DNA of 50,968 bases, taken from positions 1 to 50,968 of the forward strand of contig JABFRV010000065.1 in NCBI GenBank assembly GCA_013140975.1, given 5' to 3'. The translations under genes and the position numbers were made by a program. The notes beneath the pieces were generated by a model, which was not told where the DNA came from, searched no databases, and saw only the letters and a list, made by a program, of their open reading frames with translations. Origin of the DNA: Saprospiraceae bacterium. Lineage in GTDB: Bacteria > Bacteroidota > Bacteroidia > Chitinophagales > Saprospiraceae. Of this stretch, positions 27,001 to 48,681 are shown piece by piece (the stretch's first letter is position 1; each line of letters starts with the position of its first letter).

Positions 27001-29365
27001 ATGGCAAGTTGCCAAAACCACTTGCATTAAGATTCGTAGCTTGTCCTGCCGGCGAACTTAATTTTAACCATTTAAATGTTGCGCCAGAAATGTTCCTGCT
27101 AGAGAATGTAATTGCATTGGATACTACTCCACTACACTGAATGTTATCCGCAACCGCATTTATTATTGGTGTTTCACAATCAAATATCTTTGCTATAAAA
27201 CCATCATTGGTTCCACCACCAAAAGCTGATTGATGGGAACCCACAGAGGTTATACTAGCGTCTGTTGGAGTTTCAGTAGTTCCAACTATATATAAGGTTG
27301 CATTAGGAAAAATGCAAATTCCATAACTTACATCAGAACCAGAACCTCCATAATACGATCCATAATTCTGAGCACCGTCAGGATTAAATTTTGCAAAATA
27401 AGCGTCTTGTGTTCCACTATAAGTATTGTCATATGCATTTGATGTAGCAATTCCTGCATTGGAACTTGTTCTTCCTGATACAAAAATTGTATCTAAGGCA
27501 TCAATATCACAACTAAATAAAACATCTTCTCCTGATCCACCATAATATGTACCCCATTGTCTACTTCCAGTAAAATCAAAATTTGCAATAAAGCCATCAT
27601 AAGTTCCACCAGCATAAGCATCCTGATGCGAACCCGTTGTTGCAATTGATGTACCTGTATTCGTTGAGCTCGCTCCAACTACAATTATATCACCATTTAT
27701 ATCCTGACATATATCAAATCCACTTTCATCACCAGTGCCACCATAGTATGAACCAAATTGTCTTACACCATCCATATCTAGCACTGCAAAATATGCATCT
27801 GTATTACCACCACCATAGATTGGTTGATGTGAAACTGCGGTTGCAATCTCAGTTCCGGGGAAAGTGGCTGTTTGTCCTGTAAATAAAACCCAATTCAAAA
27901 CATTTACACTAACTCCATATGCAGCTTCATTATCACTCCCTCCATAATACGTGCCCCAATTTCTTACTCCTGCCGGATTAAATTGCGCAACGAAAGCATC
28001 AAATAATGCTCCTCCATAAGATGGTTGATGTGAACCGGGAGAAGCGATAGCCGTACCTGCGAAAGTATTTGTTTCTCCTACGATTACCGGTTGATTATTG
28101 GTACCAACAGCAACTGCAAATCCATAATCTTGTCCTGTATCGCCATAGTATGTTCCCCAGGTTCTAACACCTGCACTATTAAATCTTATTAAATAGGCAT
28201 CAACATCTCCACCAAATGTTGATTGCTGAGTTCCAACAGTTGAAATTGCTCCAAGATCACTCGAAGAAGTTTCTCCTACTACATAAATATCTGTTCCATC
28301 ATTGGCAATTCCCCAGGCATAATCATATTCGGATCCACCATAATAAGTTGCCCATATTCTTGTACCTGCCGGATTAAATTTTGCAACAAAACCGTCTTGA
28401 GTTCCACCTCCGAATGTTTGTTGATGAGATCCTGTAGTTGCAATTACTGTTCCTGTAGTCGTTGCGGTAATACCACATACATACAAATCTCCATTTGCAT
28501 CTTTTGAACATGCAGTAATCTGATCATCATTGTTTCCACCATAATAAGTTCCCCAGGATCTAACCAAAGGATCAATCATCAATTCTTTCGTCGGATCAAT
28601 TCCTTCAATAGCAAGACTGAGCTTATTACCATTAAGCACCCATTGTGCTTTTAACATTTTACTATTCTGATATACAAGTGGCCTGCCTTCTTCCACAACT
28701 CCTGCAGCTGTAATCATTGCAAGATTTCCTGCCGGGTCGACAATCGCACTTGCTCCATTGATTTCCCAAGCAAGTTGTTTGTAGTTACCACCTGGTGCAA
28801 CCTTGTAATCCACTTTTAATTTTTCATTAGAAGTGTAGAAATGCGCATCTATTTTATTGTAAATATTATAAATCCAGGCTCCTTTGTATTCTCCCACTTT
28901 TGTTGCATTTTTAGAACCTCCTGCAAGATAATACTGGGTATTGTTAGACATCATTTCATCTTTACCAAAACGAATATCCTCATTTGGATTTACCCAATTT
29001 ACATCAATTCGATGAATCATATATTCATCCGGCACTTTAGTTTCAGCACCAAAAAATATTTTTGACTTGGATGAACGAAGGTTCTTCCAGGTTTTTACTT
29101 CAGAAATTTGATAAGAAATTCCAGTTCTCTTTAAATGGAAAACCAAATTTCCATCAGTACCACTAAATAAAACATCCGGTCTAAGTTTTCGATTTTGATC
29201 TACAACCTGACCTTTATTTTCAATAAAACATAAATTTCCTTGCTCGGAAATGCGAAGCTTCGAAGGATCAACACCTCTTGGCGCTCCATTCACAAAACCT
29301 ATCGCAGTTGATGCAACCATTAGTAAGCCAATTAGACTTACCAGGAGAGTAAAATAAGATTTCAT
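21005..29365 (-). CDS. Giant surface protein A: SBBP propeller, PKD/HYR-like repeats, dockerin, cohesin, T9SS signal
   Basis: A 2786-residue secreted protein. Layout: signal peptide 1-28; DUF7948-like domain (about 45-265, opening with FIENKGQVVD); seven SBBP repeats of about 60 residues (about 270-735, each with an YYGG or YYGD core), enough for one seven-bladed propeller. Four PKD-like repeats of about 100 residues follow (735-1135, RDxxYC and IxVTP landmarks), then an HYR-like domain (about 1205-1290). Next is a Cys-rich module shared with giant protein B (from about 1295, with repeated RTWTxxDWC). A dockerin-like pair is at about 2435-2490 (STADIVKIQKHILG and ADVNNSKSLSTADI), a cohesin-like domain at about 2565-2690, and a T9SS type A signal forms the last 80 residues. 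It is probably a surface adhesin or structural protein; the ligand is unknown. A terminator follows. Confidence 0.9.
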   Translation of the reverse strand: MKSYFTLLVSLIGLLMVASTAIGFVNGAPRGVDPSKLRISEQGNLCFIENKGQVVDQNRKLRPDVLFSGTDGNLVFHLKRTGISYQISEVKTWKNLRSSKSKIFFGAETKVPDEYMIHRIDVNWVNPNEDIRFGKDEMMSNNTQYYLAGGSKNATKVGEYKGAWIYNIYNKIDAHFYTSNEKLKVDYKVAPGGNYKQLAWEINGASAIVDPAGNLAMITAAGVVEEGRPLVYQNSKMLKAQWVLNGNKLSLAIEGIDPTKELMIDPLVRSWGTYYGGNNDDQITACSKDANGDLYVCGITATTTGTVIATTGSHQQTFGGGTQDGFVAKFNPAGTRIWATYYGGSEYDYAWGIANDGTDIYVVGETSSSDLGAISTVGTQQSTFGGDVDAYLIRFNSAGVRTWGTYYGDTGQDYGFAVAVGTNNQPVIVGETNTFAGTAIASPGSHQPSYGGALFDAFVAQFNPAGVRNWGTYYGGSDNEAAYGVSVNVLNWVLFTGQTATFPGTEIATAVSHQPIYGGGNTDAYFAVLDMDGVRQFGSYYGGTGDESGFDICQDINGDIIVVGASSTNTGTSIATTGSHQDAYAGGTYDGFIANFDFTGSRQWGTYYGGSGEDVLFSCDIDALDTIFVSGRTSSNAGIATSNAYDNTYSGTQDAYFAKFNPDGAQNYGSYYGGSGSDVSYGICIFPNATLYIVGTTETPTDASITSVGSHQSAFGGGTNDGFIAKIFDCETPIINAVADNIQCSGVVSNAITFSSRNISGATFKWLKLSSPAGQATNLNASGFGNLPSFTYTNSTCVVLVDTIIVTPIHKVNAVDSCLGIPDTFLLRSIPVVEMDDIRDSSFCHGQSWLPPAFDDDCVDSLVFHWVKKSGPGGTTLPGLASSGSGNLPSLNIVNPPPSCLILTDTIIVTPYYKTKYSTDSCKGVGISLIVKSVPTPVVTATRDTVYCTGSTPAGINFTTTCSVGTVIRWTKTSLGGPGNAATNIPLSGTGNISSFTSNNPGSSIRTDSIFVYSTFVSVGDSCVGPRDTFLIRVLPNPNITMLRDTTYCHGTKVPRLTFAGIIPGTTFTWTRTGSNIGIPISGNDSIPMFMVMNTSNAIISNTISVTPILTVGGVSCSGASTTFMISAFPEAKAICKPATVYLNNLGNGILTMSDVNNGSIGRPINIFPSTFNCSNVGTNMVTLTVRDSCTNLSTCIATVTVLDTTRPVLFCQNQVVNLQPSSCETRFNYLPTATDNCINVNVEPQDTNYRPGKFISQGIHTVCYTATDNSGNTSTCCINVRVNSFTNPVGSLACADNIQVSLDEKCQATISADAFLVGGPYRCFEEYKVLIQLWNGGPYIDRDLGKKGIQLNGLDIGKIYKVTIIDTISGNSCWGKASVEDKLPPVFVKCAPDRTLTCDQSSDPIHAGQPSVIENCGTFTLTYKDVVTKGNCDLGTAAWIRRTWTAVDNSGNTSFCVQNITINYIDLELVNTPPDYNDYITPDGVHALTCDGRYDPAFEITKHLKNAPDCVDDYLLDHDEFIASGIRIPRNLGWNMFTSGPYQGHPHTESIYYPSHPDSSACWGSNRIIMWEGTGKPEVNGCENIGLTFSDVLINTSKKGCNAGPVGCFKIIRTWTMLDWCTSELRTHQQIIEVKDDEGPEITYPDSIELVASSHNCNAIWDVKDVWLKDQCSQELHYTLNAVTGTVLGDELHGYIVSDLSIGNHIVEILAEDCCGNISAKKVYVRVVDKTPPTAICQTKTVTSISASGSPFENQAVIKVESFDDGSTDNCAAHVQFKAIRMDELQGTIHGSNNNSGVCSGINGDDNPAIAGSQTYFDDYVKFCCNDVGNAVMVVFRVFDVDPGKGSVHPSRMNAGGDLEGRFSDCMIEVIVQNKSTPTIVAPADVVVSCDWWFDTERLSDTKDSIFGQIVYDLAWRKKIKTNDIVCSAFCNADSKTKYPGQKIPIDPASDLACKYYYSLYNPIHPDNKYELLWGFDGYILSGCGANFTITVDDQRTCGSGRIVRTFSTQGPGGQVVSATQNIWVVDCDPFWINSRNHCDALDDIIWPDCESRGTIIKNCGANTNPDVTGRPIVRNGADDHCALIAIEYKDQYFVAEHDACYTIIRTWTVIDWCQYDPNIDEKHGRWEFSQVIKVHDIEKPIVSCKVGVCEPASLNQFHNICYGHINLTATATDSCTQSDWLKFEYKIDLYNDGSVNYTVGSLSKREFNAGEKPAIRNNPAADSINNPFNASGNYPIGIHNITWYVYDGCENVGVCSTLFEIKDCKAPTPYCLVGLITVPMPSSGCVDVWAKDLDFASFDNCTPKDKLKFYFDSVRSKTSMRICCDDFVKIKANDEIYIQTQVWVEDEEGNRDYCTTLIVVQDNQNICPNVGSSIKVTGEIKTEEGNFTAQTSVDLYQNGQFVQSANTMLDGNYQFKNLVEFTDYLIRTSRNDNHLNGVSTADIVKIQKHILGKEEILSPYKLIAADVNNSKSLSTADIAEIRKLILGIIPTFTKVESWKFIPVSTQFEDPKNPWSFNTDYIVKMKDHDEVVDFVSIKMGDVNGNAVANLNHVKSRSVSKTKFIVEEQQLVAGQKTRIEFKGKDMNSLLGMQFTLNFNPRILQYSGVHSELINISSENVGTHTAQNGKITCSWNSEEIIECSKEEILFIIEFDVLAEGNLSNNIVISSDITSAECYDASLNASGIELVVRSESGIQSTGIFELLPPQPNPFQLYTDLSFRLPESEAVQVTIYDAAGRVLRILPIQGNKGLNSFRLAKSELSGSGIYYYQLDSKDQSATGKIVLID

Positions 29366-30758: not shown

Positions 30759-33700
30759 TTACTCTGTAATTACCATTTTCTTAGTAGCACTGAATTGTTC
30801 AGCATCTAATTGATAATAGAACATGCCTGATCCGGAAATGTCATTTCTGTTTAATTCAACAGTATTCAGACCTTTCTGACCCTGTAATGGCATAACTCTT
30901 ACCACTTTACCTGTAACATCATAAATCGTTAATGTTGCAGCAGATGCTTCTGGCAATCTGTAATTAATTGTAGTTACCTTTTCAAATGGATTTGGATTAT
31001 TCTGATACAATTCAAAAACAGATGAGCTAGCAACTCCTTTATCAGAACGAACATTCAATACAACATTTGATTCATTCATTTGCGCATCGTATGCTTCAGC
31101 ACTTGTAATATCGGAAGTAATTTCAAGACTATTAGACAGCTTTACAGCTTTTGTTGATTTGAAAACAAGTGTAAATAATACTTTATTGGAAGCAATTGAT
31201 GTTGCACTTCTTGCATCCCAACTTGTAGTCACCTTACCATTGCGTACTTGAGTTGTTCCGAAATTATCCTCATCAATTGACAATGCATTTCCTTCAACTT
31301 TTACAAAGCTTAACGCACTTGCATCAAAGTTTAAAGTAAATTGGTATCCATTGATGTTTAAGAAATTCTCAGCTTTAAATTCTATTCTCACATCCTGACC
31401 TGCTTCAACAGATTGTTCAGCGATTTCAAATTTTAAAGCAGAATTCGTTCTCGTCTTTGTTGGTTGGTTCAATCCAGCAACAGATGAATTATTTACATCA
31501 CCCATTTTTACTGCAATAAAGTTTTGCTTTTGGTTCACACCATTTACAATCACTTTCTTTTCAGTTTCATAATTCCAAGGCTGTGTTTTATCCGCAAATA
31601 CAACTTCTTCCGGAATAAATGTCCAGCTTGCTACATTGTTGAAATTATTTGCTGATCCTAAAATAAGTTTTCGGATTATCGCAATATCAGCAGATGTAAC
31701 AGATTTAGAATTATTTACATCAGCAGCAATGATTTTATAAGGAGAATTCAATAATTCTTTACTCAATACATGCTTTTGAATAGAAACGATATCTGCAGTT
31801 GAAACACCATTTAATGGATTATCATCTCTTGTTGATTTTAACATATGCTCTACAGATAATTCAAGATCTTTAAAACTATATGTACCATCTGCTAGAGTCA
31901 ATCTGCTATCCATAATATGACCTGACTTATATAAGTCAACAGTAGCGCTAGCAGATTTTCTTCCATCTTCAGTTCTTAATTCACCAGTTACTGAGCCAAG
32001 ATTACCGGTATTCGGACATATGTTTTGATTGTCTTGAACTATCACAGTAGTAACACAATAGTCTCTGTTTCCTTCTTCATCTTCAACCCACATCTGAACA
32101 CTGATTCTTAATTCATCATTCACTTTTGCCTTTAAGAAATCATCACAACAAACTCTAATTGAAGTTTTCGCGCGATCTCCATCAAAGTAGAATTTCAATC
32201 TATTCTTAGGAGTACAATTGTCAAATGAAGCAAAATCTAAATCTTTAGCCCAGATATCAACGCATCCTGAAGTTGGCATTGGAACTGTTATGATTCCTGT
32301 TAAGCAATATGGAGTTGGTGCCTTACAATCTTTTATTTCAAATAATGAAGAACATTGTCCGATATTTCCACATCCATCTTCAACATACCATGTAATTTTA
32401 TGTACACCTATCGGATAAACTCCACTTGCATCAAATGGATTATTCTGATCATCTGCATTTGGATTATTTCTAACCAACGGTTTGTCACCTGCTGCAAACG
32501 CTCTTCTTGTTAATGGTCCTACTGAAAAATCAATTGTTCCATCGTTAAATGCATCTATTTTGTAATCATAATTTAACCAATCTGCTTGCGTACAAGAATC
32601 TGTAGCAGTTGCAGTAAGACTAATATGTCCTACACAAGCTCCTGTCTGACCGCTTAGGACTGCAGGCTCACAAGCTCCAACATTACAAGTTACGATTGGC
32701 TTTTTAGTATCACGCACTTTAATTACTTGCGTAAACTCCCATCTTCCATGAGTAGCACTAATGTTAGGATCATATTGACACCAGTCAATTACTACCCATT
32801 TACGAAGGATTTTAAAACAAGCATCTTGTTCAATAGTAAATATTTCATCAAAATTCTGAATTGCAATTAATGTACATGCATCATCAGCACCATTAATTAT
32901 TTTAGGTCTACCTGTTACATCAGGACTTGTATTTGAACCACAACCTTCAACCAAAGTTCCTCTACCATCACAATCAGGCCAGATAATATCATCCTGACTA
33001 TCACAGTATTCACTTGAAATATATAAAGGATCACAATCAACAACCCAAATTGTCTGTACTGTAGAAATTAAGGTATTATTAGGACCTCTAACACTAAATA
33101 CTCTTTCAATTTTTCCTTGACCACATTCACGTTTGTCATCAATTGTAATAATTGGAGTTGCACCGCAAGTTGATAAAATATATCCATCAAATCCCCATGC
33201 TAACTCATACTTTGTATCCGGATGAGCAGGTTGGAAAAGACTATTATAATGACTACATGCTAAATTACCAACTGCAGACCTTGATCCCGGATAATTTGTA
33301 ATAGGATTAGGAGAACACCATAGATCGCAAACGATATCTGTAGTTTTAATCTTTGCTCTTTGTGAAAGATCATTAACGACTCTACCGAAAGTTGCATCAT
33401 TAGGATCTGTTAACTTTGATAAGTCAAACCAGAACATACAGCTAACAACAACATCTGCCGGAGGAACGATTGAAGGAGCAGCCTTATCTTGAACTTCTAC
33501 TTCAACCATACAATCATTGAATCTTCCAAATAAATCACCGCCTTGGTTCATTCGCTCTGGAGCAATTGGACCGACACCTGGATCAGCATCTAATACGCGG
33601 AATACCACCATAAGTGTTTTTCCAGCATCAGCACAACAAAAACTTACATGATCATCAAAATAAGTTTGTGAACCTGTGATATTCTTGTCATCATCACCAT

Positions 33701-35849
33701 TTACTTTATTACATACAGTAGATTCCTTGGTGCTACCATTATTGGTACCTGCCAATTCATCCATTCTAATAACTTTAAAATATAGATGTGGGGCACAATT
33801 ATCATGTGAACCATCATCAAATGTAGTGGCAAATACTTTTGCATAATTACTTCCCGGAGTTTGGTTTCCAGTAATAGTTACAGTGGTTTTTTGATCGCAT
33901 ACGGCAACCGGAGGAGTTCTGTCTTCGACATTGAGATAAATGAGTTTTTCTGTAACATTGCCGCAACAATCTTCGGCTACAATGTATGCGTTTTGGATAC
34001 CAAGAGGAAGATTTACCACGACATAACCTGAATTTTCATTTCCAAGAACTGTTCCATTCTCTACACGTACTGTGTAATGTACTTCTTCTGAACAATTATC
34101 TTTTACCCAGGCTGGTGGAACTTCCCATCTTCCTTCACATTTCCAAATATCTGTATTTACATCTACATGATCCGGATAAAGAACCTCAGGTCCTTTGGTA
34201 TCCATTACCTTAATTATTTGATTGTGCTCTCTTACTTCACCTGTACACCAATCTAACATTGTCCAGGTTCTAAGTAGTTTATAACAACCAACGTTACCAG
34301 CGTCACAACTATTTTTCGAAAGATCAATTCTAATATCTTTAAATGTAATAGCTATGTTTCCGCAACCTTTAGCTCTAGGAGCGCCAGTTCCTTCCCACAT
34401 AACAATTGAATTATCTGCCCAACACGATAATTGTGCAGGGTAATAAATATTATCAGGGCTAGGGTGACCTTCATATGGACCTGAAGCTATACAGTTCCAT
34501 CCCAATAATCTTGGCTCTCTTCTTCCTGTATTGAACAATACTTCCTGATCTACTAAATATTCATCTACACATTCCGGATATGGACGAAGATGAGAAGCCA
34601 AATCAAAATTCGCATCTCTTTTCGCATCACACGATAACATATATGTATTTCCAGGAAGGTTCAATCCTGTATAATCCAAAGGTGGTTTTATATCGGATAA
34701 CTTACCTGTTAAAACAAAGATCGTTTGAACACAAGTACTTTTATTTCCTTGTGCATCAACTGCAGTCCATGTTCTAGTTATGATTCTATCAATTCCTTCT
34801 TCACATGATCCATTTCTTGCTACATCTTTAAATGTTAAATCATAAACACCGCAACCTTCAATAACATTTGGATATCCAATATCTCCCGGAGTTGTACCAT
34901 CGGTACATTCAACTCTCAAGTCTCTAACACACTCAATAATTGGGCCTAACTTATCCTCAACTGTTGCAGTTCCCCAGCAACTATTTCCGGTATATGGATC
35001 TATTACAGAAATTTTTAATTTTTTTCCAATTTGCGCATATCCAATTTGCGGATATGGGTTATTAGGATCTAAATCAATTACTGCATTTGTATTCCAATCT
35101 CTTACAACAACTTGAAAATCTCCAAGACATCCGGGAGTATACGTTCCGGATAATACCATTTCCGGTGTAACTGTTGCCCAACAGTCCTGATCCAATGAGA
35201 TCTGGATATTATTATTACAGGATATTGCACCATTATTAGCATCAACATTGATTCCAAATTCACCATAAGTAAAACCAAAACCTGCGCCTGCATTTCCACT
35301 AATGTTTAAAGTAATCGTTGTCAACATACAATTAATACCAGTGGTATAGAAACCATAGTATCTTGCTCCGTTAGGAGCAGTAACAGGAATTGCACCGCTG
35401 GTAGTTCCATCATTAGCAGTTGCTGTAATTGTAAATGTGCTAAATAAATTTGGCTCGGCATAAAAATAAAATGCCCGAGTATTAGCAGGCAAAATAAAAG
35501 TATTCCCACCAATAAAAAATCCTGAAAAGTAAACATCGCCTCGATATCCATGACTCCAATTATTAAAAGAAGTTGGCACATCAAGGTGGTGAGCAGGTTG
35601 ATTAAATCCAAGGCTAACAGGACAGTCATAACTGGCCGGTACGCTTGAAACAAAATTACCAAGACCTGTCGGCCTGGTATCATCTACAAATTTAAACATC
35701 GTATAACCACCCAATGTCGGTGGTGGTGCTGCAGATCCGGGAGCTCCGTTAAATACAATACCTGCGTAGGTACTAATTAGAGTCAGAAAGAAGATTAACG
35801 CACTCCAAGAAATCTTCTTGCTCACTAAGGGTAAGCTTAGTCTTTTCAT
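30759..35849 (-). CDS. Giant surface protein B: Ig/HYR-like module, dockerin, cohesin, T9SS signal
   Basis: About 1696 residues, paralogous to giant protein A along its last 1490 residues. The start at 35849 gives a normal signal peptide (MKRLSLPL, hydrophobic core about 14-30, ending FNGAP as in protein A). Two upstream in-frame ATGs exist: 35858, and 35915, which has a GGAGGGG sequence before it but would place an unlikely charged 22-residue extension in front. The head domain (to about residue 205) is unique, Gly/Phe-rich, and not recognised. The shared module follows, with three RTWT/RKWV-type segments and many Cys pairs. Then come a dockerin-like pair (STADIVSIQKHVL; ADVNNSKSVTSADI), a cohesin-like domain (GYQFTLNFDASALSF) and a T9SS type A signal (YQNNPNPFEKVTTINYRLP to KKMVITE). 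It is expected on the cell surface. Confidence 0.88.
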   Translation of the reverse strand: MKRLSLPLVSKKISWSALIFFLTLISTYAGIVFNGAPGSAAPPPTLGGYTMFKFVDDTRPTGLGNFVSSVPASYDCPVSLGFNQPAHHLDVPTSFNNWSHGYRGDVYFSGFFIGGNTFILPANTRAFYFYAEPNLFSTFTITATANDGTTSGAIPVTAPNGARYYGFYTTGINCMLTTITLNISGNAGAGFGFTYGEFGINVDANNGAISCNNNIQISLDQDCWATVTPEMVLSGTYTPGCLGDFQVVVRDWNTNAVIDLDPNNPYPQIGYAQIGKKLKISVIDPYTGNSCWGTATVEDKLGPIIECVRDLRVECTDGTTPGDIGYPNVIEGCGVYDLTFKDVARNGSCEEGIDRIITRTWTAVDAQGNKSTCVQTIFVLTGKLSDIKPPLDYTGLNLPGNTYMLSCDAKRDANFDLASHLRPYPECVDEYLVDQEVLFNTGRREPRLLGWNCIASGPYEGHPSPDNIYYPAQLSCWADNSIVMWEGTGAPRAKGCGNIAITFKDIRIDLSKNSCDAGNVGCYKLLRTWTMLDWCTGEVREHNQIIKVMDTKGPEVLYPDHVDVNTDIWKCEGRWEVPPAWVKDNCSEEVHYTVRVENGTVLGNENSGYVVVNLPLGIQNAYIVAEDCCGNVTEKLIYLNVEDRTPPVAVCDQKTTVTITGNQTPGSNYAKVFATTFDDGSHDNCAPHLYFKVIRMDELAGTNNGSTKESTVCNKVNGDDDKNITGSQTYFDDHVSFCCADAGKTLMVVFRVLDADPGVGPIAPERMNQGGDLFGRFNDCMVEVEVQDKAAPSIVPPADVVVSCMFWFDLSKLTDPNDATFGRVVNDLSQRAKIKTTDIVCDLWCSPNPITNYPGSRSAVGNLACSHYNSLFQPAHPDTKYELAWGFDGYILSTCGATPIITIDDKRECGQGKIERVFSVRGPNNTLISTVQTIWVVDCDPLYISSEYCDSQDDIIWPDCDGRGTLVEGCGSNTSPDVTGRPKIINGADDACTLIAIQNFDEIFTIEQDACFKILRKWVVIDWCQYDPNISATHGRWEFTQVIKVRDTKKPIVTCNVGACEPAVLSGQTGACVGHISLTATATDSCTQADWLNYDYKIDAFNDGTIDFSVGPLTRRAFAAGDKPLVRNNPNADDQNNPFDASGVYPIGVHKITWYVEDGCGNIGQCSSLFEIKDCKAPTPYCLTGIITVPMPTSGCVDIWAKDLDFASFDNCTPKNRLKFYFDGDRAKTSIRVCCDDFLKAKVNDELRISVQMWVEDEEGNRDYCVTTVIVQDNQNICPNTGNLGSVTGELRTEDGRKSASATVDLYKSGHIMDSRLTLADGTYSFKDLELSVEHMLKSTRDDNPLNGVSTADIVSIQKHVLSKELLNSPYKIIAADVNNSKSVTSADIAIIRKLILGSANNFNNVASWTFIPEEVVFADKTQPWNYETEKKVIVNGVNQKQNFIAVKMGDVNNSSVAGLNQPTKTRTNSALKFEIAEQSVEAGQDVRIEFKAENFLNINGYQFTLNFDASALSFVKVEGNALSIDEDNFGTTQVRNGKVTTSWDARSATSIASNKVLFTLVFKSTKAVKLSNSLEITSDITSAEAYDAQMNESNVVLNVRSDKGVASSSVFELYQNNPNPFEKVTTINYRLPEASAATLTIYDVTGKVVRVMPLQGQKGLNTVELNRNDISGSGMFYYQLDAEQFSATKKMVITE

Positions 35850-36527
35850 ACAATTCATTTTAGGTTTATAAAAAAATAACATCACAAAATTTTTTGCTTC
35901 GCTTAAAAACAACATTTCCCCTCCGATTCTTCGATCAGATCAAAGAACCGGTGAGAAATGAGTTTTGTGAGTTTGAGTTAAACTGGAAATTGTATGAAGA
36001 TCATCTCGATATGACATTACATCATATCTAACTTTGGTTAACATGTCCAAATCATGAAAGTGGTTAGCTCAAATGATTTGACAGTAACAAGGACAATAAA
36101 ATGATTATTATAAAGTCGAAGAATAACGACCTAATGAAATACATTAATCAGTTCTTGTTACGCCACAATGATCCGATGAATTATTGAAGCTGACAAGAAC
36201 TTTAATAAATATTTATTACAGTAATATCTAAAATGAAAACATTCAGGGGAGAATACATGCACATCCCTGAATAATGTATAATGTGTTAATAGGATTATTT
36301 AGTCAACTTTCATATCCTATTGAATAAAAACTAGTAACCTCAATTATTTTGTAACAAGAACTGACTTACTATACTCCAATACAATGTAACAATTGTGCCA
36401 TATTCTCATTTCTGTCAAACAAATTATTATATACAAAATTTTATTTTCATAAGTTTATGCTCGGTAATTCTATACAAAATAAAAAATATTATAATATGTT
36501 TGATTATTATTGCATCGTTAATCAAAC
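35850..36527. other. Divergent intergenic region between giant gene B and the MATE gene (678 bases)
   Basis: AT-rich. It contains a 14-base inverted repeat pair bounding 36148-36364, two smaller hairpins inside it, and a palindrome over the MATE promoter, all listed separately. No protein-coding frame is convincing. Confidence 0.6.
36148..36364. repeat. 217-base segment bounded by perfect 14-base inverted repeats
   Basis: TCAGTTCTTGTTAC at 36148-36161 is the exact reverse complement of 36351-36364. Inside are two perfect 8-bp hairpins (36241-36248 with 36265-36272; 36288-36295 with 36314-36321) and a partial internal copy of the end (GACAAGAACT near 36192). Size and structure resemble a MITE, but no target-site duplication is visible at the edges. 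Confidence 0.45.
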
Positions 36528-38195: not shown

Positions 38196-40715
38196 ATGCG
38201 TAAATTTTATCAAATTTTGATTTTTTTTATTAGCTCAACTATTCTCTTTGGGCAAGCTAATAAAAAGATTACAGGACCGGAAAAACAAAAAAACTTTCTG
38301 AAGCAAATCTGGGGTAAAGAATCCATTTTACCGGATGAGCATAGAAGAATATCTGCATCCTTAGAATCGCTCACAAAAACATATAATAATACACGGGAAG
38401 ATATACTCTGGCAAACATTCGGACCTTCACCTGCAACATATAATAAGAAAGTTTTTTTTCCGAATGCTAAAACTCAAAATGCTTCCGGCAGAATCAGAGA
38501 TATTGCAGTGGATGTTCAAAAAATAGATGAATTTGATACCGGGATCAGAGTTCTTTCAGCGACTGGTGGAATCTTTGGCGTTTCAGAAATTTCAATTGGC
38601 GGTGGGCTATCTTTAGTACACAGCTTTAATTTATCTAAATCACTGCCAGCTATTTTTACTTCTGCATTTGCATTTCACCCATATAAAAAAGGACTTATCT
38701 TAGTTGGTTCCGGCGAACCCTTTATTACTTGCGGACAAGGATTATTCAGATCAGTTGATAATGGAGAGACCTGGAATCAAGTTGAAATGGACCTTCATTT
38801 TAGATATCCTTGTTTAATACATAAAATATTCTTCGATCCAGTTGTACCAAATGTAGTTCATGCTACTACTTCTAATGGGTATATGAAATCAGAAGATGAA
38901 GGCCTAAGCTGGAATAAATATTCTGACAATATTGATATGACAGGATTGGTACAAGATAAAAATTCATGGTCAACTTTATACTGTGCTGGAGGAAACGGAC
39001 AGCTTTATGTAAGCTACGATAATGGAGATAACTGGAACACTGTTGCCTCAAATCTACCATTAAATGAGTCTTATCATTCTGCACTAGCAATAGATCCGGT
39101 TTATTCAAATAGACTTTATGTATTTATGTCTAATAAAGACAATAGAACATTAGGACTTTTTAAATCTATTGACAAAGGAAATTCATTTACTACATGCACA
39201 TTTAATGGTGGACCTATGGTTGACATGCACTGGAGTCAAGGATATTACAATAATGTTGTAGAAGTTTCACCTATTGACAATGAAGTTGTTTTTGCAGGCG
39301 CAGGAAATTATCTGAGATCAAGTAATACGACTGACTATCAGGCAGTTGATCCTCATCATGCAGATCAACATGCAATAGTATTTGACAGCAAAGGAACAAT
39401 GTACTTAGGCAATGATGGGGGTTTATTCACTTCCACTGATAACGGTATTACATACTCAGGAAAGTACAATATATTTCCGACGATGCAATTTTATCATGCC
39501 GGGGTAAGTAGAGGAAATCCAAATTATATGTCCGGAGGCACTCAGGACAACGGGACAGTATATCGCAATAATGAAGGTTGGTATACATTACTAAATGGCG
39601 ACGGAACATCAGGATGTGCGCATCATGATATTCCTAATAAAATGTATGGATCTGATAATTCCGGACAATTGAGATATAGCAATGATGGTGGCAGAAACTG
39701 GGCAACAGATATTGATATATGTTGGGGCAAATACATGTTTGTTGAAAGCGAAAAATCAAATGTTGTTTCCGGTCCGAACTCATTACTTGCATATTGTGAA
39801 AGAGATGTTTTTAGACAGATTGGTTCAACCTGGTCAAAAATTACACCAACATCAATGGCAGGTACAATACAATATATAACTGTTTCTAATAAATCTTCAA
39901 CTGCAAGCAGAGCCAATATCTATCTATCAATTGAACATGCCGATCCTAATTTCAGAATTGCTGTTCGGAGAAGAGATGGAGATTCCTGGTCAACGAGAGG
40001 AAATACAAACGGATTACCAAACGATACATATTATAGAATTTTTCCGCATCCTTATAAATTTGATGTAGCGTATTTAATATGCCTTTCAACACCCGCAAGT
40101 GGCTTTGGAAATAAGGTTTTTAAAACTGATAATGCAGGTTTGAGTTGGACAAACATCACTGGAAATATGCCTAATGTTCCTTTAACTTGTTTAGCTGCGC
40201 ATCCACAAAATGATAATATTCTTATGGTCGGTACTGCAGGTTTCGGATTTCTTGAATCCATCGATGGAGGCACAAGCTGGAATACCTCTAATGAAGGAAC
40301 TGCAGTTTCTACAATTGTCTCAGGCATAGATGTAATTGATAGCACTTCACGTAATGGAAGTGTTCATCTCATTGCTTATACATTAGGGAATAGCTTTATA
40401 AAGCGTCATTGGCCCAATGTATTTGTCAACAATATTGATCAATACGAAGAAAAAGCAGCTAACAGAATGGAAATTATAAATACTGCTCAAAGCGGCAATT
40501 ATCAAATCCATTTTACACATGATAAAAAAGAAACCATAACAATTAATGCAATTTCTTCAAATGGACAAATTATAAAGACACAAAAATCAATCATTTACCC
40601 CGGAAATTCTGACATAGAATTAGATCTTTCATCAGCGTCATATGGCCTTTACGTTGTACAAACTATTTACTCCGATAATTCAACAGTTACAAGAAAATTA
40701 ATTCACAATCAATAA
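38196..40715 (+). CDS. Secreted Asp-box/BNR (sortilin-like) propeller protein with T9SS sorting domain
   Basis: An 839-residue exported protein. Residues 1-20 form a signal peptide ending in LFGQ. Eight Asp-box motifs (SxDxGxxW/F/Y) occur at about residues 186, 232, 273, 324, 413, 495, 644 and 688, for example SVDNGETW, SEDEGLSW and SIDGGTSW, indicating one or two beta-propellers of the VPS10/sialidase type. Conserved flanking text such as GGLFTSTDNG and FYHAGVSRGNPNYMSGGTQDNG is typical of secreted Bacteroidota glycosidase-like proteins. The last 80 residues form a degenerate T9SS type A domain (NAISSNGQI, YGLYVVQT, RKLIHNQ). No sialidase Arg triad or catalytic residues could be assigned, so enzymatic activity is not claimed. 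Confidence 0.83.
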   Translation: MRKFYQILIFFISSTILFGQANKKITGPEKQKNFLKQIWGKESILPDEHRRISASLESLTKTYNNTREDILWQTFGPSPATYNKKVFFPNAKTQNASGRIRDIAVDVQKIDEFDTGIRVLSATGGIFGVSEISIGGGLSLVHSFNLSKSLPAIFTSAFAFHPYKKGLILVGSGEPFITCGQGLFRSVDNGETWNQVEMDLHFRYPCLIHKIFFDPVVPNVVHATTSNGYMKSEDEGLSWNKYSDNIDMTGLVQDKNSWSTLYCAGGNGQLYVSYDNGDNWNTVASNLPLNESYHSALAIDPVYSNRLYVFMSNKDNRTLGLFKSIDKGNSFTTCTFNGGPMVDMHWSQGYYNNVVEVSPIDNEVVFAGAGNYLRSSNTTDYQAVDPHHADQHAIVFDSKGTMYLGNDGGLFTSTDNGITYSGKYNIFPTMQFYHAGVSRGNPNYMSGGTQDNGTVYRNNEGWYTLLNGDGTSGCAHHDIPNKMYGSDNSGQLRYSNDGGRNWATDIDICWGKYMFVESEKSNVVSGPNSLLAYCERDVFRQIGSTWSKITPTSMAGTIQYITVSNKSSTASRANIYLSIEHADPNFRIAVRRRDGDSWSTRGNTNGLPNDTYYRIFPHPYKFDVAYLICLSTPASGFGNKVFKTDNAGLSWTNITGNMPNVPLTCLAAHPQNDNILMVGTAGFGFLESIDGGTSWNTSNEGTAVSTIVSGIDVIDSTSRNGSVHLIAYTLGNSFIKRHWPNVFVNNIDQYEEKAANRMEIINTAQSGNYQIHFTHDKKETITINAISSNGQIIKTQKSIIYPGNSDIELDLSSASYGLYVVQTIYSDNSTVTRKLIHNQ

Positions 40716-43599: not shown

Positions 43600-45336
43600 T
43601 TAATAATTTAAAATTTGCATTTTCAGCGTTTTCATAACTTTCCCATTGATAACCAAAGAATAATAATATTGCTCTGAAAAAGCCTTGTACGGCAATTCGA
43701 GAATATATTCATTCATTCCTTCAATCAATTTCAATTGAATTCGTTCGACAATTTTTCCATTGTCATCAAGAATATTTAAGTACGCAGTATTAATTTTTGA
43801 AATATCGTTTACAAGAATAGGAATCATAGTGAAATCGTCGAAGGGATTCGGTCTATTCTGAATTAATTCAACAACATCCAAATTTTTAATTGGGTTTGTT
43901 GTTTTATTTGTCACACGAACAAGCACATCATTGCTAATCATACTCATCCATCCATATTCTCCCTCCGCTAATACACTTACATAATATTGAAAAGTTGAAA
44001 ATCCGGTAACTTCTAAATGCGTATCTGTGCTTTTTATAATCGTATCATAATAAACCGATGTAATTTTTCTAATGCAATATAAATAAGTCTTTGCTATATT
44101 ATCTGGGTTCTGCACATCGATAATAATTTTTCCACCTGCCGAAGAAGCAACAATTTGTGGAATTGCGTTTACATTGGTTGCAGCATTGCAAGCTGTTACA
44201 GCATTTACAAAAGTATTATTTGCAAGATAGTTAAAATTAACATAGAGACTATCTAAAACACCATCACCGTCAAGATCTTTTCCTAATACATCGCGCGTAC
44301 TGTGTTGTCTATCCTCATATCCGGCTTGAGCCGGGTTTCCATCTCCATGTTCGTATGAAGATGTGTAACGCAATGCAGTATATCCGTTTTCTCTAAATGG
44401 AATATGATCCGAACCCCTACCCGTTCGGTCTTCATTAATCATAACATCTAATTTTACAGAAGAGTTAATATTCTTATTATTTTCAAATAAAACTTTTGAT
44501 AATCTTGCCAAGTTCTTATGCATACTATTCGTAGTGCCTGAAGAAAAAATTCTCAGATGGGTGCTGTCAAATTGAAAAGGCCCGGGACATGAAGGAGGAG
44601 AGGAAGTTTTTCCACATTCAATTCCACCAACAATATCATTGTTAAATACGGCTTTAATTTTTATTCCATTATTTTTGCAATATACAGCAAATGATCTTGA
44701 CCCTCCTAATCCTTGTTCTTCACCGGTTGTCCAAATAATAAGTAAAGAACGATTGAGTTCTATCAAACTCAACAATCTGCTTAATTCCATCATCATTGCC
44801 GATCCGCTTCCATTGTCTTCAGCACCCTCTGCCATACACAGAATATCACATCTATCTTCACATCGACTGTCAAGATGCGCTTCTAGAATCACGATTTCAT
44901 TTTTATTCGGCCCAATTCCGGGAACAAAGCCCATGATTTCAGTATGTCGCGTTTTGTTACACATTGGATAATCAAATGAAAATTCTGTCTGCTCTATCAC
45001 TGAATTAGATCTTGAATTCCAAAAGCTTAAATATTGAGAAATCATTTTCCTCGCTCCACGTATTCCCTTATCGGGTTCAGTAATTGTATCATTAATGGTA
45101 TTCCTGTTGTTATAAGCAATAATTTTTTGAAGGTAGACAGATAGTGAATCCGGACTTAACTGGCTTTGTAACCATGTTGGCAATGAAGCATCAGGAATTA
45201 CCCTTCTCTTTTCTAAAGAAGACACTTCATAATCTCCTTTGAGAAGTTTTTCAAAGGCAGAATTGGAAAATGAAAAATTGGTTTGTGCAAATGAGAGAAT
45301 CGGCAATACTAAGATTAACAAACAAATTCTGGTCAT
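43600..45336 (-). CDS. Secreted M28-family zinc aminopeptidase with T9SS sorting domain
   Basis: A 578-residue exported metallopeptidase. Signal peptide 1-18 (ending FAQT). The di-zinc site of family M28 is complete: H154 and D156 in AHLDSR, bridging D174 in AEDNGSG, catalytic and ligand glutamates E206/E207 in TGEEQGLGGS, D234 in NNDIVG and H345 in RQHSTRD. Cys pairs around 159-167 may form disulfides. An FN3-like stretch follows (about 385-480), and the C terminus is a T9SS type A domain (VELIQNRPNPFDDFTMIP to KTLKMQIL). It probably acts at the cell surface or in the medium on peptides and is the first gene of a unit with the GH30-like enzyme. Confidence 0.9.
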   Translation of the reverse strand: MTRICLLILVLPILSFAQTNFSFSNSAFEKLLKGDYEVSSLEKRRVIPDASLPTWLQSQLSPDSLSVYLQKIIAYNNRNTINDTITEPDKGIRGARKMISQYLSFWNSRSNSVIEQTEFSFDYPMCNKTRHTEIMGFVPGIGPNKNEIVILEAHLDSRCEDRCDILCMAEGAEDNGSGSAMMMELSRLLSLIELNRSLLIIWTTGEEQGLGGSRSFAVYCKNNGIKIKAVFNNDIVGGIECGKTSSPPSCPGPFQFDSTHLRIFSSGTTNSMHKNLARLSKVLFENNKNINSSVKLDVMINEDRTGRGSDHIPFRENGYTALRYTSSYEHGDGNPAQAGYEDRQHSTRDVLGKDLDGDGVLDSLYVNFNYLANNTFVNAVTACNAATNVNAIPQIVASSAGGKIIIDVQNPDNIAKTYLYCIRKITSVYYDTIIKSTDTHLEVTGFSTFQYYVSVLAEGEYGWMSMISNDVLVRVTNKTTNPIKNLDVVELIQNRPNPFDDFTMIPILVNDISKINTAYLNILDDNGKIVERIQLKLIEGMNEYILELPYKAFSEQYYYSLVINGKVMKTLKMQILNY

Positions 45337-46170: not shown

Positions 46171-47454
46171 ATGAATCAAGCAAAACTTTCTTTTAATCAA
46201 ATCAGAACTCCTTATTTAGGTTTTCTAAGTACATTTCTATTCATCATTATCAATTTAGGAACAATACAGGTAATGAATGCGCAAACAGGTTGTATTAACG
46301 GAACGCCTCGTTGGTGTAATGGATCAAATATTAATAATACAAGCTCCAGAAATGGAAATGGAGTTTTAGGCCCCACTATCAATATTTGCCGTACGGGATT
46401 GGATTTTGTTACCAGCTCGCAAAGATTAGGACAAAGATTTTCTCCCATTGGAATACCACAGCCTGCAATTTTCACAGTATCCGGAATTCCGGCAGGGGCT
46501 ATTATTGAAACAGCTTATTTATATTCCGGCACAAGTGGAAACGGAATCGCAGTAACTGCAAATATTACAAATCCTTCTGCTTCTACAACAGGTTTCCCAA
46601 TGGCTGTTATTGGATCCGGATCAGATAAATGCTGGGGGTATGCAGGAAGCTTTAGTTACCGCGCAACCGTCACCTCAATAATTTCAGGAAATGGGAATTA
46701 CACTATTTCAGGTTTACCTGTAGGTGGTACTAACGATACTGATGGCGCAACATTATTAATCATATATAGTGTAGCCTCTGCTACTTTTACAGGCTGTATT
46801 TCTATTGATGACGGCTCAATTGTTTCAATTGGAACAAACAGTTCTGATCAAGTTACTTTTACAGCTTGTGGTACAACAGCACTGCCAGGTGCAAGAGCAT
46901 TCGGAATGTTTGCTGATCTTCAATTTAATAATAGCACCTTAACTTTTAATGGAAATGTTGCACCTTATGCTTTCAATTGGTGGAATTATATTGAAGTTCC
47001 TACAACCGTTACAAATACTCAAACTATTGCTAATTTCACAGCAAGCTACCCTGGTGATTGTGTAAACTGGGTTGCTGCAGGTATTTATACAAGATGTGAA
47101 CTAGTGGTTACAACACCGACCTTAGGCCAATGGGGAATCATACTTTTCGTTCTATTGCTTATGGGGTTCTCAAGTGTGTATGTATATCAGAGACAATTAA
47201 TTGCTCAAACTTCTCAAGGAAATGCATTAGGCTCATTCTCATTTGATTATTCATCTATCTTTTCAAATTTAAAATTCAACACTAAGCAATTCTTTGGAAT
47301 ATATGCTTTGGCTTTAGCGCTTATTTCAGCTTTGTTTATGGTTGCAATTAAAATATTTGATTATAGCCTTATGGAATATGATGTGATTGGTAGTCTGTTG
47401 TGCGGATTTATTGGAGCAGTGTTTATTCATTATTTCAGAAACAATAACAAATAA
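46171..47454 (+). CDS. IPTL-CTERM surface protein with extended membrane tail
   Basis: A 427-residue exported protein, probably the substrate of the adjacent exosortase. Signal peptide about 1-38 (ending NAQ). Residues 40-312 are a Cys- and Gly-rich beta-sandwich-like body (AYLYSGTSGNG, GSDKCWGYAG, RAFGMFADLQF, FNWWNYIEVPT). The sorting signal TPTLGQWG at 315-322 is followed by a hydrophobic helix (323-338) and a basic YQRQ (339-342), as in IPTLxxWG-CTERM domains. In most such proteins the chain ends there. Here 85 residues continue, with two more predicted membrane segments (about 375-394 and 404-421) and a basic end FRNNNK. The gene precedes the exosortase by 46 bases, and I found no T9SS signal. 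Confidence 0.85.
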   Translation: MNQAKLSFNQIRTPYLGFLSTFLFIIINLGTIQVMNAQTGCINGTPRWCNGSNINNTSSRNGNGVLGPTINICRTGLDFVTSSQRLGQRFSPIGIPQPAIFTVSGIPAGAIIETAYLYSGTSGNGIAVTANITNPSASTTGFPMAVIGSGSDKCWGYAGSFSYRATVTSIISGNGNYTISGLPVGGTNDTDGATLLIIYSVASATFTGCISIDDGSIVSIGTNSSDQVTFTACGTTALPGARAFGMFADLQFNNSTLTFNGNVAPYAFNWWNYIEVPTTVTNTQTIANFTASYPGDCVNWVAAGIYTRCELVVTTPTLGQWGIILFVLLLMGFSSVYVYQRQLIAQTSQGNALGSFSFDYSSIFSNLKFNTKQFFGIYALALALISALFMVAIKIFDYSLMEYDVIGSLLCGFIGAVFIHYFRNNNK

Positions 47455-47500
47455 CAGTGAGTTATAATTTATTGTGCATTGTGTATTGTTTTAACTAACA

Positions 47501-47992
47501 TTGGCACTGCACAATAAATTATATCGATACTGGTTGGTATTTTCAATATCAATCATTGGCTATCTCTTATTTTCAATAAGCGATACTTACACGAATTACA
47601 TTGAAAAGCCAGTAAGTAATCTTTACGGCAAAGTATGCAGCCTTATGCTTCCTCTAATAGGCTACAAAGCAGAATCCAAAGAACTCAATCTAATTGGTGA
47701 CGGATTCGAAATGAGTATTGCCACAGGATGTGATGCAATCATGCCTTTGGTTTTTTTGTCTTTAATAATAATTCTCAGTCCATACGGTTCACTGAAGTAT
47801 AAATTGAAGGGAATTTCCTTAGGATTTCTCTTTATTGTCTTGTCCAATATCATTAGATTATGCAGCCTCTTTATCTTAGGACATCATTCCCAATTCTGGT
47901 TTGATTTTTTTCACGTTCAGTTCTGGCAAGCATACTTCATCTTGCTGACTTTAATGTTTTTTATATTCTGGTTAAAAAATATTAAATCTTGA
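47501..47992 (+). CDS. xrtH: Exosortase, XrtH-like (IPTL-CTERM type)
   Basis: A 163-residue multi-pass inner-membrane cysteine transpeptidase-like enzyme expected to cleave the IPTL-CTERM signal of the upstream protein. The exosortase/archaeosortase triad is visible: C77 in ATGCDAIMP, R119 in NIIRLCSLFILG and H138 in FDFFHVQFWQ. The FxxxHxxxWQA arrangement and short length fit the XrtH type. The first helix is at about 10-27, and four more hydrophobic segments follow. The only possible start in this frame is TTG at 47501, since a stop lies a few codons upstream and no ATG precedes the first helix. The stop overlaps the next gene by 4 bases. Confidence 0.85.
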   Translation: MALHNKLYRYWLVFSISIIGYLLFSISDTYTNYIEKPVSNLYGKVCSLMLPLIGYKAESKELNLIGDGFEMSIATGCDAIMPLVFLSLIIILSPYGSLKYKLKGISLGFLFIVLSNIIRLCSLFILGHHSQFWFDFFHVQFWQAYFILLTLMFFIFWLKNIKS

Positions 47993-48681
47993 ATCTTTCT
48001 TTTCATCTCAAAGACATACTCAAGTTTACGGCATATTTTTTTGCAAGCTACCTATTATTCTACATTATTTTTCATCAACATAAAATAGAAAAATCATCCC
48101 TTAATTTATTTCACAAGGCGATTAATAGCCTGCTTAAAAACGTATTCGATGATACTTATTTTCTGGCTGAGCCAATGATTAATACTTCTACTCAATTGCA
48201 ATATCAGGGCGTATTAATTAAGGTGGATAATACAGAGAATTACCCTTTGTATGACACTCGGATTAATCTGATCAATGAAAAGATACTTTCACAACAGGTT
48301 ATTGAAACAAAAAAAACCGGAGTCAATACTATAGCGCTTCAAATGCACAGCTATAAATTTTCATTTTGGAGTTTCGTTTTATTACCCTTTACTCTGTTAA
48401 TATCATTGCTATTTGCTCATGCAATGGTTTTTAATTATTCTAAAAGGTCTATGATAATATCAATGGCATTTCTTATTGCCATGATATTTATCCAATTTGT
48501 TATGGTCTTAATCAGCATGAGAAGTCAAGCCGGTAATTTAGAACCCTTTGAATTCTCGATTTCCATTCAGAATAGCTTTAGGAAATTATCTACTCTTTTT
48601 CATATTGAGTTTACTTATGTCTCTGTAATGGCTATTTATCTGTTTTTACATTGGAAAATGATATTCCTAAAAACAGAATAA
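47989..48681 (+). CDS. Multi-pass membrane protein associated with the exosortase
   Basis: A 230-residue protein starting at TTG 47989 within a TTGA overlap with the exosortase stop, so it is translationally coupled. It has one N-terminal membrane segment (about 11-28), an extracytoplasmic portion of about 95 residues, and three C-terminal membrane segments (about 127-147, 154-174, 206-223). I recognise no catalytic motif. A membrane protein of this size adjacent to XrtH is, as far as I recall, seen in other bacteria as an XrtH-associated protein, but I cannot verify membership. A role in substrate presentation or processing is inferred from position only. Confidence 0.7.
   Translation: MNLSFHLKDILKFTAYFFASYLLFYIIFHQHKIEKSSLNLFHKAINSLLKNVFDDTYFLAEPMINTSTQLQYQGVLIKVDNTENYPLYDTRINLINEKILSQQVIETKKTGVNTIALQMHSYKFSFWSFVLLPFTLLISLLFAHAMVFNYSKRSMIISMAFLIAMIFIQFVMVLISMRSQAGNLEPFEFSISIQNSFRKLSTLFHIEFTYVSVMAIYLFLHWKMIFLKTE

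Follow-up and report, generated by a model that had tools for sequence, protein, structure and literature searches.

Organization of the locus

The subject of this report is a three-gene exosortase unit in a 50,968-nucleotide stretch of DNA from a Saprospiraceae bacterium (GCA_013140975.1, JABFRV010000065.1), called the window below; the assembly totals 3.97 Mb, and the window is its contig 182. An earlier note, made from the sequence alone, had described here a cassette of three consecutive plus-strand genes encoding an IPTL-CTERM protein, an XrtH-like exosortase and a coupled multi-pass membrane protein. Open reading frame (ORF) calling recovered the three genes in this arrangement, at 46171-47454, 47501-47992 and 47989-48681, with products of 427, 163 and 230 residues, the last two read from TTG starts. 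The features of the unit are listed below, each with its basis.

46171..47454, plus strand: substrate gene of the midcut type, with, in order, a signal peptide (about residues 1-38, judged by eye), an exported domain, the IPTL motif, a transmembrane helix, a linker and a fused two-helix tail (ORF; TIGR04174 and NF033207 matches)
47113..47136, plus strand: IPTL-type motif TPTLGQWG (residues 315-322), where recognition and cutting are presumed to take place, followed by a transmembrane helix (profile match; motif position)
47209..47451, plus strand: fused tail module, two hydrophobic helices, loop DYSLMEYDVIG (homology to separate small proteins in relatives)
47501..47992, plus strand: XrtH-type exosortase, with C77 at 47729-47731, R119 at 47855-47857 and H138 at 47912-47914 (profile matches; alignment; AlphaFold model)
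47989..48681, plus strand: third gene, XrtH-associated membrane protein, putative pseudo-exosortase with an enlarged beta domain and without the triad (profile comparison; predicted structure)
47989..47992, plus strand: 4-nt overlap TTGA between the third-gene start and the exosortase stop codon (ORF coordinates)

The exosortase is XrtH-like

The product of 47501-47992 belongs to the exosortase superfamily, as had been proposed, since it matched TIGR04178 with 43.5 bits (cut-off 23); it also matched PF09721 with 38.7 bits (cut-off 25.7). XrtH (TIGR04177) was the top-scoring exosortase type, yet its 71.8 bits lie under the cut-off of 86, and the protein is therefore labelled XrtH-like. Cys77, Arg119 and His138 were found at the positions given in the earlier note and are invariant in an alignment of 61 XrtHs, their catalytic role being assigned by homology. 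The triad and the exosortase assignment thus stood, while the curated XrtH threshold was missed. The AlphaFold model of the enzyme had a mean confidence (predicted local distance difference test, pLDDT) of 94.0, and among solved structures no relative of it was found by sequence or by fold.

The substrate carries an internal IPTL motif

The first protein had been read as carrying a C-terminal sorting signal, which was not borne out: its IPTL motif is internal, spanning residues 315-322 of the 427 and lying 113 residues from the C terminus. Because two further hydrophobic segments follow the helix next to the motif, the layout is that of a midcut-by-XrtH protein and not that of a C-terminal signal. 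The midcut feature, an internal IPTL motif followed by hydrophobic sequence, is taken here from the name of model NF033207, and the first protein has it. NF033207 itself gave 14.6 bits over model positions 33-58 of 175 (cut-off 45), PF18203 gave 15.4 bits (cut-off 20.8), and TIGR04174 gave 16.9 bits on the whole protein and 21.5 in a six-frame search (cut-off 20.5); the TIGR04174 and NF033207 matches fall within residues 311-336. Across the loci examined, the distance from motif to end split IPTL ORFs into two separate groups, midcut proteins with 104-116 residues and C-terminal-type proteins with 27-44 (37 and 29 ORFs, counted before duplicate loci were removed).

The third gene accompanies XrtH across genomes

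The surroundings of 84 distinct XrtH-like ORFs were compared. These comprise the named-genome loci L049-L109 (61, from a scan with 18 aligned XrtHs) and loci from genomes of the family; XrtHs with similar final 120 residues were counted once, keeping the longest locus. Two duplicates (L026, L046) and a 62-residue fragment (L109) were left out, and the third-gene and tail counts leave out loci L130-L157. A third gene lay on the same strand, at most 3 kb downstream, in 81 of the 84, the exceptions being L045, L100 and L114. L045, at 26 bits, is not an XrtH; without it the third gene is present in 81 of 83, and the loci lacking the tail described below number 34. This co-occurrence supports the earlier suggestion that the coupled third gene belongs to the exosortase system.

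Linkage was close, 71 of 77 distinct pairs overlapping or lying no more than 35 nt apart (starts placed at the first start codon); at L089 other genes stand between exosortase and third gene. Distance matrices of XrtHs and third genes were correlated (r 0.735, against a maximum of 0.105 in 1000 shuffles; species kinship was not removed). The third gene was present in all eight named Planctomycetota loci, and seven genomes of other families in the phylum set have XrtH together with a third gene. A third-gene homologue with 39% identity to that of the window was seen in isolate SJ486 (L126 6923-7609, contig 39); the 10.4 kb locus around it lacks an exosortase.

The third gene is probably an inactive exosortase relative

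A profile of third genes was compared with one of XrtHs (77 sequences each) using hhalign, giving a probability of 97.8% and an E-value of 1.1e-12 (97.3% in an earlier comparison), while reversed alignments gave 2.9% and 2.7% and the substrate family 0.4%. The aligned core places P-x-x-FL-x-AL-x-x-ASP-x-x-WKRKL...G of the third gene over GCD...FP-x-x-WK-x-KLKGLL-x-G of XrtH. When 61 third genes were compared with 18,950 NCBIfam models (E ≤0.1), exosortase models were matched most frequently: XrtH 17 times (best 1.2e-5), XrtY 11, XrtX 6, heimosortase 5 and XrtF 2; an earlier set of 30 gave XrtH 4, XrtF 2, heimosortase 2, XrtX 1 and XrtY 1. In the AlphaFold model of the window protein (pLDDT 91.1) the order of elements is that of XrtH (two helices, beta strands, helices), with an enlarged beta domain.

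The catalytic triad is missing from third genes. GCD occurred in none of 77, and the best column reached a frequency of 0.13 for Cys and 0.14 for His, against 100% in XrtH; we therefore use the name pseudo-exosortase. Since third genes appear homologous to exosortases yet are without the triad, the third protein is probably a catalytically dead exosortase relative and a likely partner subunit.

A clean third-gene profile was built from 27 sequences free of exosortases, a first iterated profile having been discarded because it had drawn exosortases in. Of the 21 matches to the third-gene profile across 395 genomes of the phylum, 15 were third genes (5 in the window's own genome, 10 beside an XrtH match), four overlapped exosortase matches in the same frame and two were neither.

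These results bear on another possible origin, in which the third gene is unrelated to exosortases and encodes a transporter-like protein, for example half of an LptF/LptG pair that transports the lipid acceptor, the resemblance to XrtH coming from a membrane-protein composition common to both. The window's third gene does match the LptF/LptG family PF03739 at E 1e-4, but with 21.9 bits this is under the gathering threshold of 27.9, and PF03739 was matched by one of 30 third genes; an LptF/LptG origin was rejected on these grounds. Exosortase models are moreover the top NCBIfam matches, and the third-gene profile also retrieves exosortases from the 395 genomes. An unrelated transporter is accordingly very unlikely in our estimation.

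The preferred assignment, an exosortase relative, can be set beside an existing category, the exosortase H-associated membrane protein NF041730, which matched 8 of the 61 third-gene homologues (E ≤0.1, best 2.9e-8) and gave no match to the window protein up to E 10. By sequence comparison, the third gene is distantly related to this category. The earlier note's view that the role of the gene is little described held only in part, given that an XrtH-associated category exists in NCBIfam; in a literature search that left most subscription journals uncovered, no account of its kinship to exosortases was found. Judged by title and abstract opening, the papers listed from the same literature included none on an inactive exosortase, on XrtH or on midcut-by-XrtH; IPTL-CTERM did not occur in those listed, and no paper was retrieved for exosortases together with Saprospiraceae.

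The C-terminal part of the substrate occurs fused or as a separate protein

When all ORFs of at least 40 residues were searched with a profile of the sequence that follows the IPTL helix, small separate ORFs beside C-terminal-type IPTL substrates were also matched. On the window the profile matched 47242-47451 (E 1.5e-21, the window copy being part of the profile). Fused and separate tails were matched to each other by profile-profile comparison with 99.6% probability (E 9e-25; reversed control 11.7%), and neither XrtH nor the third gene resembled the tail in such comparisons (0.3%). Ten separate tails searched against NCBIfam and Pfam gave only weak, unrelated matches, best E 0.005 and 0.009, all below cut-offs. 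Judged by this homology, the C-terminal module of the first protein corresponds to a small membrane protein that has its own gene in relatives and is here fused to the substrate; within the searches made, this is new.

Over the 84 loci the tail was fused in 23, separate in 26, in both states in none and not detected in 35. Separate tails have 63-88 residues in 23 of 26 cases and 102-133 in three (read from the first start codon). C-terminal-type substrates occurred at 18 of the 26 separate-tail loci and at 0 of the 23 fused loci (Fisher 1.4e-7, loci not being independent). In a quick tree built from 83 XrtHs, the two states need at least eight changes among the 49 tail-bearing loci. The clearest example joins contig C12 of the window's own genome to locus L094 of SJ486, whose exosortases are sisters (support 94, not starred): at C12 the separate tail starts within the substrate stop codon (TAATG), and at L094 substrate and tail form one protein of 306 residues. 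The exported domain DUF4082 is likewise found in the C12 substrate and in one substrate of contig C40, where the tail is fused.

The tail followed XrtH within the family. TIGR04177 was matched in 27 of 120 family genomes, and the tail was present in 25 of these 27 and in none of the other 93. The two genomes without it were G011, which has an XrtH without an adjacent third gene and a weak third-gene-profile match elsewhere (9.6e-4), and G021, whose TIGR04177 match is not an XrtH. Across the 395 phylum genomes, strong tails were confined to three genomes of the family, alongside three weak matches (7.7e-5 to 7.3e-4), and two of the eight planctomycete loci carry the tail (L091, L101). From these counts the tail is a feature of the bacterium's own lineage and of some planctomycetes, not of all XrtHs, and since it went undetected in 35 of 84 loci, not every XrtH requires it.

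Could the tail be a passive extra anchor that drifts between fused and separate states without function, XrtH either making no cut or merely releasing the protein from its stump? The loci where no tail was detected and the weak conservation of the tail (34% mean column identity over 17 rows) would fit such a view. It is at odds with the strict phyletic tie to XrtH (25/27 versus 0/93), with a D-[ILVFM]-[PILVM]-[GC] loop kept in 48 of 49 tails (proline in 29), with the at least eight changes of state, and with the seven tails found for seven substrates in the window's own genome (four fused and three separate, the genome's own copies being part of the profile). We regard a passive anchor as quite unlikely.

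Several other layouts were observed. At L017 (8940-14424), L105 and L107 the substrate and a separate tail lie about 4 kb upstream of the exosortase, and at L017 the genes for a 211-residue protein and for an FG-GAP/VCBS-like protein (by eye) of 1110 residues stand between these and the exosortase. The named strain Phaeodactylibacter luteus (L086) also has a midcut cassette. L072, from a metagenome-assembled genome of Bacteroidota, has five C-terminal-type IPTL substrates around one XrtH, with no tail found, in contrast to the window. On contig 13 of genome G115 a tail match (34741-34929) lies within an open frame of 2183 residues, perhaps a giant midcut substrate.

Several candidate substrates and two sorting routes in one genome

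The earlier note had proposed a route dedicated to a single adjacent protein. By family models the genome has five exosortases, all with a third-gene homologue downstream, and at least seven candidate IPTL substrates, six at or near the TIGR04174 cut-off and a 273-residue protein on contig C26 recognized by its motif; a one-protein route is thus unsupported. A 12.8-bit TIGR04174 match on contig C177 was rejected, as its frame has no IPTL motif. One further third-gene fragment, 35 residues of the 3' end, lies between two midcut substrates on contig C40 (L016 11965-12069) and is perhaps a relic of a cassette duplication.

Dedication might still hold in a weaker form, each XrtH of the genome processing only its neighbour. 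The units look inherited whole: adjacent pairing of exosortase and substrate is kept in the genus mate SJ486 (genome G044) at L084, and paralogous pairs stay matched between the two genomes, the window with L084 in all three genes, C12 with L094 and C26 with L107. Identities between the window unit and L084 are 58% for the exosortase, 42% for the third gene and 67% for the substrate (416 residues in SJ486), the next best being 41%, 39% and 30%, the last to the substrates of L094 and L107. Against one enzyme for one substrate, the substrates on contigs C80 and C123 (8.8 and 6.9 kb) have no exosortase on the same contig, so that they would be served in trans, if at all, and four or five substrates accompany a single XrtH at L075 and L072. 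Strict dedication therefore seems unlikely to us. In another member of the family, G071, five fused tails lie on five contigs with one XrtH match, and midcut substrates there may be served in trans.

A second C-terminal sorting route, the type IX secretion system (T9SS), had also been proposed. SprA was found in the genome as one match spanning the whole model (2001 bits), and at least 150 type A sorting domains are present (150 of 321 candidates were scored and all 150 matched). Because these stand alongside the exosortases, the two routes coexist in this genome, as had been suggested. The figure of at least seven type A proteins in the window was not reproduced. TIGR04183 matched four of six window proteins scanned, with none in 38196-40715 or 43600-45336, and a fifth, 21005-29365, came from the genome-wide scoring, which brings the window to five. 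Two very large proteins of the window, 21005-29365 (2786 residues) and 30759-35915 (1718 residues), are secreted, with C-terminal parts that look similar by eye and type A tails.

Relation to known systems

The unit resembles the XrtH/IPTL-CTERM system (TIGR04177, TIGR04174) in its Cys/Arg/His exosortase and in the IPTLxxWG-type motif before a transmembrane helix in an adjacent gene; it differs in that the exosortase is under the XrtH cut-off and the motif is internal. It resembles midcut-by-XrtH proteins, as far as the name and length of NF033207 tell, in a mid-protein IPTL motif followed by hydrophobic segments. Unlike NF033207, however, the 14 IPTL proteins compared (that of the window, five of the same genome, eight of relatives) all scored below 45 and reached profile position 74 of 175 at most; the match excludes the tail, which occurs as a separate gene in relatives. 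As with NF041730, the third gene adjoins XrtH, but the window protein is unmatched by that model and the kinship to exosortases is added here.

Two precedents come from better-studied organisms. Archaeosortase A of Haloferax volcanii is reported to cut HVO_0405, a natural fusion of what were once two independent genes, at a tripartite site in the centre of the protein, and linkage of the new C terminus to lipid is a model that its authors call speculative (PMC7157517); a review calls the enzyme a transpeptidase (PMC9263693). Unlike the window protein, HVO_0405 has an archaeal PGF signal and another fusion partner, and it is the one case reported there. XrtF and the exosortase F-associated protein of Flavobacterium johnsoniae are likewise an exosortase with an adjacent partner in a T9SS organism, both needed for normal biofilm, deletion of xrtF equalling deletion of the neighbour in the tabulated biofilm phenotypes (PMC10936215). 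The XrtF system differs in that its substrates are unknown there, and none of the 61 third genes matched the XrtF-associated model among the matches listed. A cyanobacterial exosortase is described as needed for motility and biofilm in a paper that cites the F. johnsoniae xrtF work (PMC12188702). Reasoning from these precedents, we infer that XrtH cleaves the first protein within its IPTL region and requires the third protein as a partner.

A model of the unit

On balance we consider it rather probable that the window holds one complete XrtH unit of four modules on three genes, working as follows. The first protein would be exported by means of its signal peptide and be arrested in the inner membrane by the helix that follows the IPTL motif. 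XrtH, with its Cys-Arg-His triad, would cut at that motif, the presumed site, and the new C terminus would probably pass to an acceptor, which by comparison with archaeosortase A would be a lipid. The cut would free the exported domain from a three-helix membrane stump carrying the tail, whose conserved D-x-x-[GC] loop is predicted to lie outside the cytoplasm, where exosortase cysteines are thought to act. The third protein would most likely form a complex with XrtH, holding the substrate, the tail or the acceptor.

Several observations weigh against this model. The window proteins miss the NCBIfam cut-offs for XrtH and for midcut, and the window's third gene itself matches no exosortase model in NCBIfam, third genes and XrtHs being about 15% identical when aligned. 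A Foldseek search of the PDB with the exosortase and third-gene models gave no match at E 0.001 or better, so that a fold name could not be borrowed from solved structures. The loci without a detected tail include all ten rows of the Bacteroidales-type clade and six of the eight planctomycete loci, and in some family genomes the tail is on another contig.

A more far-reaching version is offered tentatively, and we would not put it at even chances. XrtHs would be obligatory pairs of a live and a dead exosortase with a two-helix subunit presenting substrate or acceptor; midcut substrates would be polyproteins, split by XrtH, that deliver this subunit one to one with the cargo, and lineages would switch repeatedly between fused and separate forms.

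The system is of a known kind, with two components probably newly identified by these comparisons: a partner that is probably a dead exosortase, and a small membrane module, fused or separate. In the databases scanned, the accessory proteins of this exosortase have hardly more than a name, and annotation gaps are indicated for the XrtH partner in Bacteroidota and for the separate tail. The tail suggests a purpose for midcut substrates and may provide a natural reporter in which cutting causes a large change of size, as with HVO_0405 and archaeosortase A (PMC7157517). If the usual partner of XrtH is indeed a dead exosortase, XrtHs are probably hetero-oligomers, which would change how they are expressed, modelled and assayed.

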